Source: Acidobacteriota bacterium
GTDB taxonomy: Bacteria > Acidobacteriota > Terriglobia > Terriglobales > Acidobacteriaceae
Direction of reading: 5' to 3'
Length of the DNA stretch: 64,000 nucleotides
NCBI GenBank assembly: GCA_003225175.1
Contig: QIBA01000028.1
Location: 1 to 64,000 of the forward strand
Shown here: positions 33,184-45,708 of the stretch, in pieces
Layout of the letters: every line of letters begins with the position of its first letter
Numbering within the stretch: position 1 is the stretch's first letter
Made by a program: the position numbers and the translations under genes
The notes under the pieces: model-generated
The model's input: the letters and a program-made list of their open reading frames with translations, nothing else
The model's database searches: none
Told to the model about the DNA's origin: nothing

Positions 33184-34170
33184 TTAGTGAGCAGACTTTT
33201 TTGCGGCGGAGAAGTGTTCCCAGCCTCGCGGCATTAGGATTGCGCACTTCCCATTCTGCACCAAGTACATTTTCCTTTCGCGGAGAACCTCGCCTACTCT
33301 TGTGACCTTGACTCCAGCGATCCGTTCTGGGATGTGCTTTGACCTCGACGCGGTGAACAGGAGTTCGTAGTCTTCGCCGCCGTGTAGCGCGAGTTGCAGA
33401 GAAAGGCGGCTGGCCTGCTCACCTCCGCGCTCGTTTCGCGACAGCTTCCGGGCTTCCATATGGATCGGAATTTTGTCCGATTCGATTGCTGCCCCGACGC
33501 CACTCTCCTCGCAGAGATGACTCAGGTCGGTTGAGAAGCCATCGCTGATGTCGATAGCTGAGGTTCCAACTCCTCTTCGGACCAGCCATTCGCCTACCGC
33601 AACTCTTGGCTGAGAAAAGACATCGCGCTTCTTGATCCTACCCGAGCCAAGAAGGTGCAGCACGGCGGCGGATTCACCCAGATCTCCGGTTACGTAAATA
33701 AGATCGCGCGGCTTGGCGCCGCAGCGCAGGAGGGCCCGTCCGCGCCTTACCCTTCCGACAACTATGATGTCTGCCACCACTCCGCCAGGCGACTCCGCCG
33801 TGTCTCCGCCGGCAAGTTCGACTCGATGGGTGCGGGCCAAAGCGAGGAGTCCCTCAAGAAATCGATCAGGCCAAGCTGGGGAAAGTCTCGCCGGCAAAGC
33901 GAGCGATAGGAATGCGGCGGCAGGCGTGCCTCCCATGGCAGCGATGTCGCTCAGCCCGCGCGCCAGACAGCGATGCCCGATAGACTCGGGCGACTGCCAA
34001 TCGCGGCGAAAATGAATCCCTTCAATGCTGAAGTCGGTTGTGACCAGCGTTTCCTGCCCCGGAGGAAGGCTCAGTACAGCGCAGTCGTCACCAATTCCCA
34101 GCATCACTTCGGGATTCTTGGATTGCCTGAGGCTGCGGAACCACTTCAGAAGTTGGCGTTCAGGGATCAA
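33184..34170 (-). CDS. thiL: Thiamine-monophosphate kinase
   Basis: It phosphorylates thiamine monophosphate to the active cofactor thiamine diphosphate. At 328 residues it has the start ERQLLKWFR, the Mg/ATP segment GIGDDCAVLSLP, VTTDFSIEGIHF, the glycine-rich ARGLSDIAAMGG, the LAGGDT motif, and the C-terminal GGEDYELLFTA. All are in the family order. No thi biosynthesis genes adjoin. It converges on the GNAT gene. Confidence 0.95.
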   Translation of the reverse strand: MIPERQLLKWFRSLRQSKNPEVMLGIGDDCAVLSLPPGQETLVTTDFSIEGIHFRRDWQSPESIGHRCLARGLSDIAAMGGTPAAAFLSLALPARLSPAWPDRFLEGLLALARTHRVELAGGDTAESPGGVVADIIVVGRVRRGRALLRCGAKPRDLIYVTGDLGESAAVLHLLGSGRIKKRDVFSQPRVAVGEWLVRRGVGTSAIDISDGFSTDLSHLCEESGVGAAIESDKIPIHMEARKLSRNERGGEQASRLSLQLALHGGEDYELLFTASRSKHIPERIAGVKVTRVGEVLRERKMYLVQNGKCAILMPRGWEHFSAAKKSAH

Positions 34171-34676
34171 GGCGACGATGGCTGAGAGCCGAAATTACGA
34201 AGCACAAAGCTAAGCAATCCGACTAACCAGAATTCATCAGCATACTGCCAAACGCAAGCCATAGTGGGTCTGAGTTCCGTCGATTTTGCGCGCAGCTCCT
34301 ACCCTTAAAGTCTTAAGCAGTCCTTTCGCCAGTAATCCTGCAAAGTGTCGAGGCCTAGCATTTCGATCTCTTCCGAGTAAAGCCTTAATTTATAACTTGC
34401 TGAAAACAAATAAGGTTACTCAAGTAACCTCACTTTAGTGTTTGACACCAGAGAAGCTGCTTTGTTAACGTGCCGTTGCATTTAGAAATATCTCTGGCCG
34501 CAGGCCCGATGGTTGGTCTGGCACGTTGAGTTCGGGGAGGCATTAAACCCCCCGCAAACTAAAAGCTCACTATCGTCAAGACAACCGGCAGAGGCGCTTG
34601 ATCCCCAACCAGGGTGACTCCTCTGAGCAGTAAGAAAAAAGGGCAGCTCGAAGAAAATCCGGTCTTTGGAGTGGTA
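34171..34676. other. Divergent intergenic region thiL / M23 peptidase
   Basis: No gene is seen. It holds an inverted repeat (34414-34429) followed by a possible promoter with TTGACA at 34442-34447 and a weak GTTAAC -10 after 16 bp. A longer GTG-started version of the peptidase (from 34614) would use its right end, but the ATG at 34677 is preferred. Confidence 0.45.
34414..34429. repeat. Short inverted repeat, possible operator
   Basis: GGTTACT and AGTAACC are separated by CA, giving a 7-bp dyad, 12 bp before a TTGACA box. The size and position fit a regulator-binding site, but the regulator is unknown. Confidence 0.4.
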
Positions 34677-35597
34677 ATGCGGAAGCGCTACTACATCATG
34701 TTTGTCGCGCGAGACGCCGACGGCGAACTCGTGAAAATGCCTATCCCTCTGCATTACCTATACATGTTTATCGCCGGCGCGCTTATCGGCATGCTCACTA
34801 TCACCGGCATGGCCGGTTCTTACACCCGCATGCTGGTAAAGGTGGCGCGATTCAATCAGCTCAAGGTTGAGAAGGACGCCCTCAGCGCCAATTACAACAA
34901 GCTGGAGCAGGTGGCCAAGGAGAAGGACGTCCAGGTTGCGTCGCTCGGATCGCTCGCCAGCGAAGTTTCCGCCTTATATGGCCTGAAAACTGAGACCGAC
35001 TTCAAGACAGCCGTTCCTGAAGAGATCAAAACGCAACAGGTCAATTATTCGATCGATCAATTATCGATTTTGAAGAACACCGCAATGTCCGGAGTTGCCG
35101 GTGCAGGAATCTCGGCCAGCTACGGACACATTGGCACGCTAAGCACGAGTGACTGGGAGCGCCTGGCAGCAGCTCCGTCGTTGTGGCCGGTTGAAGGCAT
35201 TGTGACCGGATCGTTTGGCGAACGCATTGATCCGTTCAACGGTGAAGGCGCCTTCCATACCGGTGTAGATATTTCGACGCCGTTTGGAACGCCCATCATC
35301 GCACCAGCCGATGGCAGGGTCAGAGCCGCTACCTACATCACCGGCTATGGAAGAACGATCATCCTCGATCACGGCCACGGAATCACAACTCTCTTCGGAC
35401 ACATGTCTGGATACGCAGCCGCCGAAGGAGAAACAGTCCATCGCGGAGATGTGGTCGGCTATGTAGGATCCAGCGGACGCAGCACGGGCGCGCACCTTCA
35501 CTATGAAGTCCGCATCCAGGACACCCCGGTGAATCCCCATAAGTATTTGCGCACAGTATGGGCGCGCAGCGGGACCGGCGTGATGACCGGAATGTAA
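34677..35597 (+). CDS. M23 family metallopeptidase
   Basis: An envelope LytM/M23 domain protein, 306 residues from the ATG at 34677 (GGAG five bases upstream). The short N-terminal cytoplasmic piece is followed by one membrane helix (about residues 28-48). A coiled coil (RFNQLKVEKDALSANYNKLEQV) follows, then the peptidase domain with zinc ligands in HTGVD and HLHYEV. GTPIIAPADG and GYGRTIILDHG are also present. All ligands are present, so it may cut peptidoglycan peptide bonds; some relatives only activate amidases. Confidence 0.92.
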   Translation: MRKRYYIMFVARDADGELVKMPIPLHYLYMFIAGALIGMLTITGMAGSYTRMLVKVARFNQLKVEKDALSANYNKLEQVAKEKDVQVASLGSLASEVSALYGLKTETDFKTAVPEEIKTQQVNYSIDQLSILKNTAMSGVAGAGISASYGHIGTLSTSDWERLAAAPSLWPVEGIVTGSFGERIDPFNGEGAFHTGVDISTPFGTPIIAPADGRVRAATYITGYGRTIILDHGHGITTLFGHMSGYAAAEGETVHRGDVVGYVGSSGRSTGAHLHYEVRIQDTPVNPHKYLRTVWARSGTGVMTGM

Positions 35598-36954: not shown

Positions 36955-37390
36955 GTTACTTCTCTCCTGGATGAATATCTTTACAATCTACTTGCGAATT
37001 AGGATGCTCCCCTTCAAAAGCTTTCGATGACGCTTTCCACATGGCGTAACTTTTCGCAGGATCGTTCCCGGGCCGGTGACGCTTGGGTAACCGAGGATCC
37101 CAGGTTATTTCAGCGGTAGCTGCTTATACAGTCCGGCTTTACGCGAAGATTTAGGAAGAAGTCCAAGCCCCTTACACGCCCTTTAAATCTCTTCAGGGCG
37201 ACAGTCTCCAACGCAATCCGCCCTGCTACTCTCGTGCGAGTTGCCGCAAAATGCGGCACTCTTGGTGCCCTTTTTCCTCTTAACGAGCAAAGCAGAATGG
37301 CGATCGGTCCTTCTCCGTGACGATCACGGGTGCCATTCTGGTTTCGGAATAAAATATGAACCAAGATTCAGTGCAGAGCAGGAGGAGAAT
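36955..37390. other. Upstream region of the selenocysteine thioredoxin gene
   Basis: No gene is seen. A TAAAAT sequence at 37350-37355 could be a -10 box but lacks a -35. AGGAGG at 37380-37385 is the ribosome site of the following gene. Confidence 0.4.
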
Positions 37391-37981
37391 ATGAGTGTGA
37401 ATTGGAGTACAGATGTTGATCAGGCATTAGCTGCCGCCCATGAGAAGAACCGGTCCATTCTGATCGACTTTAGTGCGGCGCCAGCGTGAGGCGCCTGTAC
37501 TCGGCTGGATGCCGAGTCATATGATGAACAAAGGACCGCCGAGTTTATCCACCAGAACTTCATTCCTGTAAAGGCTCATATCAAGGAACATCCAGCATGG
37601 TTCCACCGTTTTGACGCGGTGTGGACCCCGAGTGTGCTGCTATTCGACCGCGAGGGCAAAGAACGAGTCCGTATAGAAGGCTATTTGCCGCATGACGACT
37701 TTCTTGCTGCTCTCGAGAGCGGTCTCGGCCGTATCGCGTTCGTGCACAAGCAATACGCCGATGCGGAACGCTGGTACAACGATGTGATCACGGGCTTGGG
37801 GGAAACCCATTCCGCTCCCGGGGCGATGTATTGGCGGGCAGTAGCGCATTACAAAGCGACCAATGACCACACCGTTCTCGGCAGAGTTGCAGAGGATCTT
37901 CGCGCGCAATACCCCTCAAGTGTGTGGGCGTCAAAGTCGATTCCGTGGCTGCCGACCGGAGCGCAAAAGGAAGTGGCGTGA
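37391..37981 (+). CDS. Selenocysteine-containing thioredoxin-fold protein (in-frame UGA)
   Basis: Read through one TGA at 37487-37489, this is a 196-residue protein. It starts MSVNWSTDVDQALAAAHEKN after AGGAGG. ILIDFSAAPA-U-GAC puts the UGA (residue 33) exactly at the first Cys of a thioredoxin CxxC site, with C36 kept. The cis-Pro region follows (VWTPSVLLFDREGKER), so the fold continues in the same frame past the stop. The last ~75 residues are a TPR-like helical extension (QYADAERWYNDVI, MYWRAVAHYKAT). The frame is clean apart from that single codon, and a SECIS-like hairpin follows. A redox enzyme with Sec as the attacking residue is inferred. The alternative is a nonsense mutation, made unlikely by the exact position. 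Confidence 0.88.
37499..37517 (+). promoter_or_regulatory. Bacterial SECIS element of the thioredoxin-like selenoprotein
   Basis: ACTCGGC and GCCGAGT form a perfect 7-bp stem around the loop TGGAT. The loop starts 16 nt after the UGA and has G in its second and third positions. Known bacterial SECIS hairpins lie in the coding sequence right after UGA, with a G among the first two loop bases and about 16-37 nt between UGA and loop; this one meets those rules. A bulged T and two further pairs may extend the stem. Confidence 0.8.
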
Positions 37982-38082
37982 AGAGTACCCGAGTCAAGCG
38001 GTAGAACCCTCGACTAAATATCAACGTGGAGCAACCCTGAAGTGAGAACCACAATCGCACGATACACACTCCTGAACTTTTT

Positions 38083-44214: not shown

Positions 44215-45708
44215 TCATTCCCCAGTATCGATCTGGGCGCGCTGCAGTCGGTCAGAGTAGTCCACGTAGATCGCCTTCCATTGTGTGTAGAAATCGATTG
44301 CGCCAATCCCACCCTCGCGATGTCCGTTGCCGGTAGCTTTCGTGCCTCCGAATGGCAGGTGCACCTCTGCGCCAATCGTTGGCGCGTTGATGTATGTAAT
44401 GCCAGTCTGCAGGTCACGGATGGCTTTGAATGCTCTGTTCACATCGCGTGTGTACACCGCGGATGAAAGGCCATAGGCAACTCCGTTCGAAATCTCGACC
44501 GCTTGCTCGAGACTGTCGGTTGGAATCAGCGAAACAACCGGACCGAAGATCTCTTCCTGCGCAACTTGCATTTTTCCGTGAGCATCTCCGAAGATCGTAG
44601 GTTCCCAGAAATATCCATCGCCGAGACCGCCCGAGGTGATGCGATTCCCACCAGCAAGCAGCTTTGCTCCTTCGTTCTTGCCAATCTCAATGTACTTTTG
44701 TGTAGTCTCGATTTGCTGCTGATTGATTTGCGGGCCCATGTCGTTTTGCTCGTCGATGCCGGCGCCGACTTTCATTGCTTTTGCGCGGCTTACGAACTTA
44801 TCGGTGAATTGGTTGTATACACCTTTTTGCACGATTACACGGCTGGCGGCGGTGCAGCGCTGACCGGTGGTACCAAATCCGCCCCAGAGCGCGCCATCGA
44901 TCGCGAGATCGACATTTGCATCATTCAGAATGATGATCGCATTCTTGCCCCCCATCTCCAGCGAGCACGGCTTGAAATGGCGGGCTGCGGTCTGGCCAAT
45001 AGTGCGGCCGACGTCGCTCGATCCAGTGAAGGAGATCGCACGTACGTCCGGATGCTCGAGCAGCGGCGCCCCCGCCTCGGGACCATGGCCGTTAACAATG
45101 TTCACGACGCCGGGCGGAAGTCCCGCATCCATGAGAGCGCGGACTAGATTCAAAGTAGAGAGCGGCGTGTCCTCTGCAGGTTTGATGACGCACGTGTTTC
45201 CCGAAATGATCGCAGGGAAGATCTTCCATGAAGGAATTGCCATTGGGAAATTCCACGGTGTGATCATGCCGACAACTCCGAGAGGAACACGCACTGCCAT
45301 CGCAAACTTGTTGGGGAGTTCGGAAGGAACCGTATGGCCGTCGAGGCGGCGGCCTTCCCCGGCCATGTAGAAAGCAGTATCAATCGCTTCTTGAACATCG
45401 CCGCGAGTCTCTTTGAGAACCTTTCCCATCTCGCGAGTCATGTCGCGCGCGCAGTCTTCCTTTCGCTCCTGGAGAATCTGGGCACAGCGATAGATGATCT
45501 CGCCACGGCGAGGAGCGGGAGTGAGTCGCCAACGCTCGAAAGCTTTCGCAGCGGCCGCAACCGCTTCGTTCACATCGTCTTTATTGGATCTTTGAAAAAT
45601 GCCGACAATATCTTTGACATTAGCAGGGTTTTGATTCTCGAATGTTTGTCCGGAGCGCGATTCAAGCCACTCGCCTCCGATCAGGTTCTTGTAGACTCTT
45701 GCGGCCAT
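44215..45708 (-). CDS. Aldehyde dehydrogenase (NAD(P)-dependent)
   Basis: 497 residues of the ALDH superfamily, oxidising an aldehyde to its acid. The NAD-binding segment is [18 protein letters not shown] and the catalytic Glu lies in LEMGGKNAI. The catalytic Cys lies in GQRCTAASR. The C-terminal [10 protein letters not shown] and [15 protein letters not shown] segments are also present. The closest subtypes are the alpha-aminoadipic semialdehyde / succinate-semialdehyde-like or lysine-catabolic ALDH7-type enzymes, but the substrate cannot be fixed. It lies upstream of ald on the same strand, separated by the repeat element. Confidence 0.92.

Follow-up and report, generated by a model that had tools for sequence, protein, structure and literature searches.

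The window, by which we mean the whole stretch of 64,000 nucleotides of acidobacterial DNA that was analysed, has on its forward strand at 37391-37981 a frame that is 197 codons long when its final TGA is counted and that contains, with TGA translated as U, just one internal TGA, at codon 33. An earlier note on this DNA had pointed to one TGA (37487-37489) in an otherwise intact frame and had placed it at the first position of a CxxC-type site. Our translation agrees on both counts: the redox motif around codon 33 reads S-A-A-P-A-U33-G-A-C36, an APA-U-GAC site on a thioredoxin fold. A mechanical listing of ORFs cuts the gene into two pieces, one of 82 aa whose end is at 37489 and one of 120 aa whose start is at 37619. 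The locus comprises the following features:

37380-37387, + strand: strong Shine-Dalgarno-like sequence AGGAGGAG, 3 nt 5' of the ATG (read from the sequence)
37391-37981, + strand: predicted selenoprotein gene, 196 residues (with Sec33) and the final TGA (frame translation, homologue searches)
37391-37714, + strand: thioredoxin-fold domain, residues 1-108 (Thioredoxin_2 / Thioredoxin_7, DsbD-gamma-like)
37487-37489, + strand: in-frame TGA, read as Sec33 (frame translation, alignments)
37496-37498, + strand: TGT, Cys36, predicted resolving residue of the UxxC site and the sole Cys in the window protein
37499-37517, + strand: predicted SECIS hairpin ACTCGGC-TGGAT-GCCGAGT, a 7-bp stem (37499-37505 with 37511-37517) and the loop TGGAT (37506-37510)
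37628-37630, + strand: Pro80, invariant in alignment A1, at the cis-Pro position of the thioredoxin fold and presumably in the cis state
37715-37948, + strand: TPR-like helical tail, residues 109-186 (helices 101-118, 122-135, 142-157, 161-173 and 178-182)
37979-37981, + strand: final stop, also a TGA, with homologues ending nearby (frame translation, homologue reading)

From these features and the comparisons below, the in-frame stop codon of the window gene very probably encodes selenocysteine (Sec). Against L051, substitutions fall 7/3/16 on codon positions 1/2/3 over 32 codons 5' of the TGA, and 30/12/68 over 155 codons 3' of it. This pattern is coding-like on both sides, so protein-like substitution continues downstream of the TGA. 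We also scanned the window for other TGA frames with a UxxC or CxxU site, at least 25 codons before the TGA and at least 100 after it. Only two were found, at 45229 and 41171; they lie antisense to genes that by eye appear aldehyde dehydrogenase-like and histidine kinase-like, and as selenoproteins they look like chance.

Homologues were surveyed with a profile built from alignment A1 (34 rows, 185 positions), which leaves out the frameshifted L060 and L061, the partial L062 and the thioredoxin-only L043-L045, L047 and L048. We ran it over 396 genomes of the phylum and 399 of the class, overlapping draws in which G000 and G321 are repeats; at most eight first-look candidates were scored per genome, so further copies may be missed. 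In the phylum sample, 26 genomes held a full-length match (E <= 9.6e-48), followed by a clean break: the next matches start at 2.9e-25 and cover mostly the thioredoxin part. Twenty-five of these homologues have one in-frame TGA, which in each, read one by one, stands at the CxxC position; the remaining one (G321) has Cys. The class sample gave 16 full-length matches, 14 with TGA and two with Cys (G321 and G567). Taken together, a full-length homologue was found in 40 genomes, 38 distinct ones with TGA and two with Cys. The Cys forms have the motif CKGC at the same position, and distant thioredoxins have CxxC there. The search for Cys homologues that the earlier note had proposed thus came out in favour of its reading, as the full-length homologues that were read carry UGA or Cys at the exact site and continue past it. 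Homology past the TGA, which it had also claimed, is borne out by the alignments and the substitution pattern.

Close relatives gave a uniform picture. Among 35 aligned close members (a codon set without L108 and without L099, the same protein as L055), codon 33 is TGA in 35/35 and codon 36 encodes Cys in 35/35; in 25 of them, protein identity to the window protein is 42-74%. This set and a smaller one of 26 sequences exclude the distant L038-L042, L046, L049, L050, L087 and L110-L112. Similarly, a contig scan of 84,980 species, whose patterns came from one protein and which therefore reaches only close relatives, returned 12 loci, all under Acidobacteriota names. The site is covered in 11 of them, and every one of the 11 carries TGA there. 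Some of these loci belong to the same genomes as the sampled ones, and L055 and G672 give the same protein. On plasmids, we found two weak thioredoxin matches by protein and none by DNA.

The gene is patchily distributed. Within the taxonomic family of the window's genome, full-length matches were limited to G000 and G321 in the phylum sample and G567 and G627 in the class sample. The genus-mate G715 gave no match at E <= 1e-35, although it has selB. DNA similarity to G715 is 85% over 34378-35596, and nothing on that G715 contig matches the stretch that holds the selenoprotein gene; because the similarity ends abruptly at 35596, no clean empty site could be shown. That such scattered relatives keep both the codon and the RNA signal described below gives the group the look of a real protein family.

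A tree of 53 rows, made without L060-L062 and L108 (at a contig edge) but with five thioredoxin-only rows, placed 36 rows, all U, in one close clade (support 100/95). Outside it stand five rows with the motif PGULGC and two with NPxUIGC. The Cys pair joins the PGULGC group on a long branch with weak support (93/39), and its exact place is loose; since its two rows form one clade, the switch between Sec and Cys was likely one event, not two. The distant full-length relatives L041, L046, L049, L050 and L087 (PGULGC) and L038 and L040 (NPxUIGC) carry UGA at this position too, with their own predicted hairpins. The motifs seen across Sec lineages are thus SAAPxUGxC, PGULGC and NPxUIGC, and given these distant UGA relatives there seem to be several thioredoxin-TPR subfamilies with Sec.

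Two observations concern gene copies. L059 and L061, on two contigs of the assembly QIAR01, are near-identical copies of the gene; the frame is intact in one, and the other leaves it after about residue 74. Separately, G296:C31:214677-218273, G146:C101 and G336:C124 each hold two or three adjacent frames of about 500-600 aa with a thioredoxin-like match and one in-frame TGA per frame, possibly tandem selenoprotein copies.

The AlphaFold2 model of the window protein (pLDDT 95.9, pTM 0.91) shows a thioredoxin fold to about residue 108, followed by helices. Its best solved folds were DsbD-gamma, DsbH and thioredoxins, with many rows tied; examples are 2ju5 (Z 13.6, 1.9 A over 114 residues) and 1vrs (Z 13.5, 1.6 A over 106). 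The tail resembles the BamD fold in 5efr (Z 12.6, 2.9 A over 93 residues) and 5waq (Z 12.1, 2.1 A over 85), where a Z below about 13 may reflect no more than a shared arrangement of helices, since helical repeats reach such scores easily. By profile, residues 110-182 matched YbgF (2xev, 3.9e-9) and CpoB (6g5s, 1.1e-7). In Pfam at E <= 0.01, the members of A1 matched Thioredoxin_2 in 34/34 cases, TPR_16 in 14 and TPR_6 in 13; the window protein itself matches TPR families only weakly (E 0.05 and 0.22), which counts against a TPR assignment. Overall, the TPR-like C-terminal extension that the earlier note had described is supported by the family's Pfam matches, the profile matches and the fold comparison. 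The positions invariant in A1 are 33 (U, shown as C), 36, Pro80, Gly97 and Ala125, and Asp26 is nearly so. No signal peptide is visible by eye in the window protein.

These domains bear on what kind of protein this is. It could be merely the Sec form of the "thiol:disulfide interchange protein" (PF13098 / cd02953, UxxC) with an incidental tail, a possibility that we take seriously while favouring another reading. PF13098 is indeed the best Pfam match of the window protein (40.3 bits, gathering cut-off 27), and the family is listed as UxxC in the excerpts consulted of PMC13188914 and PMC2398784. Against this stand the 26 full-length rows, whose alignment spans almost all 185 positions of the profile and takes in the tail. 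Most of the next matches listed run no further than about position 115, with a few extending to 120-168, and most are stop-free. With the tail aligned in 26 rows and the next matches mostly thioredoxin only, thioredoxin and tail seem to form one evolving family.

We consider it rather unlikely that the protein is a Sec chaperedoxin, in which the TPR tail would serve as a holdase and the U-x-x-C domain would guard client thiols, as proposed for CnoX. The domain order is the same as in CnoX, and the CnoX structure 3qou appears among the Foldseek matches (rank 13, E 1.2e-5). However, the whole-chain superposition on 3qou is poor (rmsd 16.6), the window family has no significant profile match to E. 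coli CnoX (hhalign probability 7.0), and TPR_19 plus TPR_20 span about 160 residues in CnoX against a tail of about 80 here. Among the A1 members at E <= 0.01, TPR_20 is not one of the 14 matched families and TPR_19 occurs in 3/34. By sequence, the profile probability and the lack of the TPR_19/TPR_20 pair speak against CnoX membership.

The earlier note had called for a look-up of the Sec machinery and had named its complete absence as refuting; the machinery is present. The window's assembly (5.73 Mb, 268 contigs, 98.9% complete, 0.5% contaminated) encodes selA (554 bits), selB (377 bits) and selD (371 bits), all over their cut-offs, as well as a tRNA-Sec (64.4 bits against a gathering score of 47; called tRNA-SeC with anticodon tca by ARAGORN). 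Two further genes have in-frame TGAs: selD, at the N-terminal site KAAG-U-ASKLSP, and formate dehydrogenase alpha, at I-U-HSSTV, both of which we take to be classic Sec sites. With selA, selB, tRNA-Sec and selD and these UGA-bearing genes, the genome, as far as its gene content tells, decodes Sec. Folds of -16 to -17 kcal/mol lie just 3' of the TGA in these two genes (L018 and L094), computed without a shuffle control. Within the window, a thiamine-monophosphate-kinase-like gene (named by eye) at 33184-34170 on the minus strand reaches 62.7 of 125 bits with the selD model and is not a second selD.

Across the sampled genomes, the gene goes with the Sec trait. The trait is common: selB was found in 256/396 sampled Acidobacteriota genomes at E <= 1e-60 and over the curated cut-off in 254/396. 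All 25 TGA genomes of the phylum sample are among the 256; their weakest selB is that of G242 (1.9e-61), whose selA scores 549 bits. Of the other 13 TGA genomes, 12 have a selB that exceeds the cut-off. In the thirteenth, G459 (84% complete, 810 contigs), selB is below it (190 bits) and selA over it (551 bits). Each of the 38 UGA genomes thus has selA or selB. The two Cys genomes, G321 and G567, gave no selA at E <= 1e-20, and G321 gave no selB match at E <= 1e-30. The selB match of G567 (186.5 bits, in a 403-aa frame) is below the cut-off and most likely an EF-Tu. With Sec almost always present in the genomes sampled, and Cys only where Sec machinery was not found, the family offers a clean test case for the benefit of Sec over Cys.

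The perfect 7-bp hairpin with loop TGGAT that the earlier note had placed nine bases after the UGA is present at 37499-37517, with 16 nt from UGA to loop. The bacterial SECIS model, as excerpted from PMC13188914, has a loop of 3-9 nt, a stem of 4-16 bp, a G in the first two loop positions, a distance of 16-37 nt from the UGA and an MFE <= -7.5; the hairpin falls within it (5-nt loop, 7 bp, 16 nt, -13.2 kcal/mol). Calling the element "near-ideal" was generous: it fits the published model and is conserved, but 16 nt is the minimum of the published spacing. Its loop G, too, is within the allowed first two positions but at loop position 2, not 1. As a single sequence, the fold is unexceptional (z = -1.62; 15/200 shuffles fold as well), so the case for a SECIS element is a comparative one.

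In alignment A3 (28 sequences, 27 of them distinct, with L060 and L039 and without L061 and the other distant rows), 88.4% of the stem cells of the 27 distinct rows are paired. Both sides change in 3/7 stem pairs, a result as high in 2/500 shuffles. Counting against the element, the outermost stem pair is non-standard in 13/27 distinct sequences and L025 has lost the 3' arm of the stem. A control slide of +1 gave a covariation score of 0.118 against 0.083, but only 46% of its cells were paired. The close-clade hairpins fold at -11.9 kcal/mol or lower and the distant U forms L039 and L041 at -8.9 and -9.8; in the two Cys forms, the corresponding stretch gives only weak folds of -7.8 and -5.9 kcal/mol. 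A search of 37300-38000 against Rfam returned no family at gathering score and two sub-threshold matches, neither on the hairpin.

Codon choice supports the same element. In 26 aligned coding sequences, synonymous excess over the family's codon usage is greatest at codons 38, 39, 41, 37 and 42 (CGG 25, CTG 25, GCC 24, GCT 20 and GAG 25 of 26, respectively), against a median near zero over the 85 codons scored. With 35 sequences, the top four codons are unchanged, and codon 177, outside the hairpin, ties codon 42 for fifth. None of 200,000 random draws of five codons from 90 scored fell within six codons; the five codons ranked highest lie within such a span with 26 sequences and not quite with 35. 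Nowhere in the gene is synonymous constraint stronger than across the hairpin codons 37-42, in support of a SECIS that overlaps the coding frame.

This conservation weighs on two readings without Sec. In one, which we regard as highly improbable, the TGA is read as another residue, such as Trp in a changed code or by near-cognate readthrough, since the inserted residue cannot be read off an open frame alone. Yet TGA also serves as a terminator, being the stop met first beyond the conserved end in 19/26 close members read by eye (the automatic tally of 17 is lower because some frames were read past the first stop; the stop of L036 is TAA). Moreover, Cys is the one other residue seen at this position among full-length relatives, and it occurs in the two genomes that gave no selA and no selB over the cut-off; the conservation of the hairpin and the complete set of Sec genes would go unexplained. 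Trp in particular is rejected, because TGA also terminates and Trp is absent at the site in the rows read. Still less credible is a plain stop or pseudogene, a former thioredoxin gene disabled by mutation or assembly error: the split frame in the ORF listing and the frameshifts in the database relatives L060 and L061 would fit it, but the TGA sits at the same codon in 35/35 close members and 38/40 sampled genomes with a full-length homologue, protein-like substitution continues 3' of it, and this conservation refutes the idea; a changed genetic code is likewise rejected on conservation.

We are therefore left with Sec insertion and hold with high confidence, on comparative grounds, that the selenoprotein gene is real, that SelB and tRNA-Sec would insert Sec at UGA 37487 under the direction of the hairpin, and that the product would be a thioredoxin-fold UxxC oxidoreductase with a TPR-like tail. 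The family itself, as judged from its sequences, is real, computationally secure and chemically of a familiar type, the UxxC thioredoxin-like one. In the proposed mechanism, SelB and tRNA-Sec would act in vivo through the hairpin, which lies within the coding sequence 3' of the UGA, to yield a 196-residue and probably cytosolic protein whose only redox centre would be Sec33-x-x-Cys36. In thioredoxins, the N-terminal Sec of UxxC attacks and the second Cys resolves. Here, the Sec33 selenolate would attack a disulfide in the target, or another oxidised form of sulfur, and the mixed selenide-sulfide would then be resolved by Cys36; Asp26 and Pro80 occupy the positions they usually have in thioredoxins. 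The enzyme would presumably run in the reductase rather than the oxidase direction, and the TPR-like tail would probably dock a protein substrate or partner. In short, this is probably a cytosolic Sec/Cys oxidoreductase with a docking module as its tail.

No conserved gene neighbour or operon was found in the flanks examined, mostly 1.5-3 kb. In one subclade (L027, L029 and L030), the divergent upstream neighbour reads by eye like vitamin K epoxide reductase, a possible redox partner.

More speculatively, and we would not favour it over a simpler account, these proteins might form a thioredoxin-TPR superfamily with scattered members across Acidobacteriota, built on Sec in almost all lineages seen and on Cys only in genomes without the Sec trait, that acts as a docked, substrate-selective, chaperedoxin-like "selenoredoxin". 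If true, the superfamily would be an unrecognised reason why Acidobacteriota keep selenocysteine. With the present finding, the selenoproteins gain a family in which a thioredoxin domain is followed by a TPR-like tail. Simple gene finding breaks such genes in two, which suggests that Acidobacteriota annotation truncates them.

For Acidobacteria, three families with four selenoproteins had already been counted (PMC1794560, in excerpt), and three known and no new selenoprotein genes were reported for one Acidobacteriota genome (PMC12013277, in excerpt). In the consulted part of a 2026 review, a table of 119 families and subfamilies includes no thioredoxin-TPR selenoprotein, the nearest entry being "Thiol:disulfide interchange protein, PF13098, UxxC" (PMC13188914); an excerpt of an older source lists "Trx-like 2, cd02953, UxxC" (PMC2398784). 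Among the open-access literature matches listed (titles and starts of abstracts), no description of the family was found, which is no proof of absence; the combination of a UxxC thioredoxin with a TPR tail was thus not found described in the open-access literature searched.

Several known systems resemble the window protein in part. The PF13098 / cd02953 selenoprotein (thiol:disulfide interchange or Trx-like 2, UxxC) shares Thioredoxin_2 and Sec as the first residue of CxxC; by the description in the review table (PMC13188914, in excerpt), with which alone it was compared, it has no TPR tail. The folds of DsbD gamma (PRK00293) and the TsoB rhodanese/DsbD selenoprotein (NF045694) are among the best matches, but the family scores are weak (32.5 of 330 and 38.9 of 805 bits) and confined to the last ~110 profile positions, and the window protein has 196 aa against 572-574. 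The full-length PRK00293 model, matched at positions 460-570 only, speaks against a DsbD identity. The VPGUxxT families (NF041382, NF041383) and Trx7/PDZ (NF041199) match the N-terminal ~60 residues weakly (22.9 of 350, 29.9 of 275 and 18.5 of 300 bits); the window protein has UxxC rather than their UxxT or CxxU, and its scores below the NF041383 and NF041382 cut-offs place it outside VPGUxxT. Overall, neither the window protein nor six other family members scanned singly scored over any cut-off in NCBIfam 20.0, and none of L041, L046, L050 and L040 came near one.

The tail matches the TPR domains of YbgF/CpoB and BamD by profile and fold. These are envelope proteins, unlike the window protein, which shows no signal peptide by eye. 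Finally, the earlier note had been unable to name the domain order. That order is in fact known from CnoX (YbbN) of E. coli, which combines thioredoxin and TPR in that order (PMC8129009, in excerpt), although by sequence the window protein is no CnoX: CnoX has SxxC where the window protein has UxxC, and the thioredoxin domain of the latter is DsbD-gamma-like.
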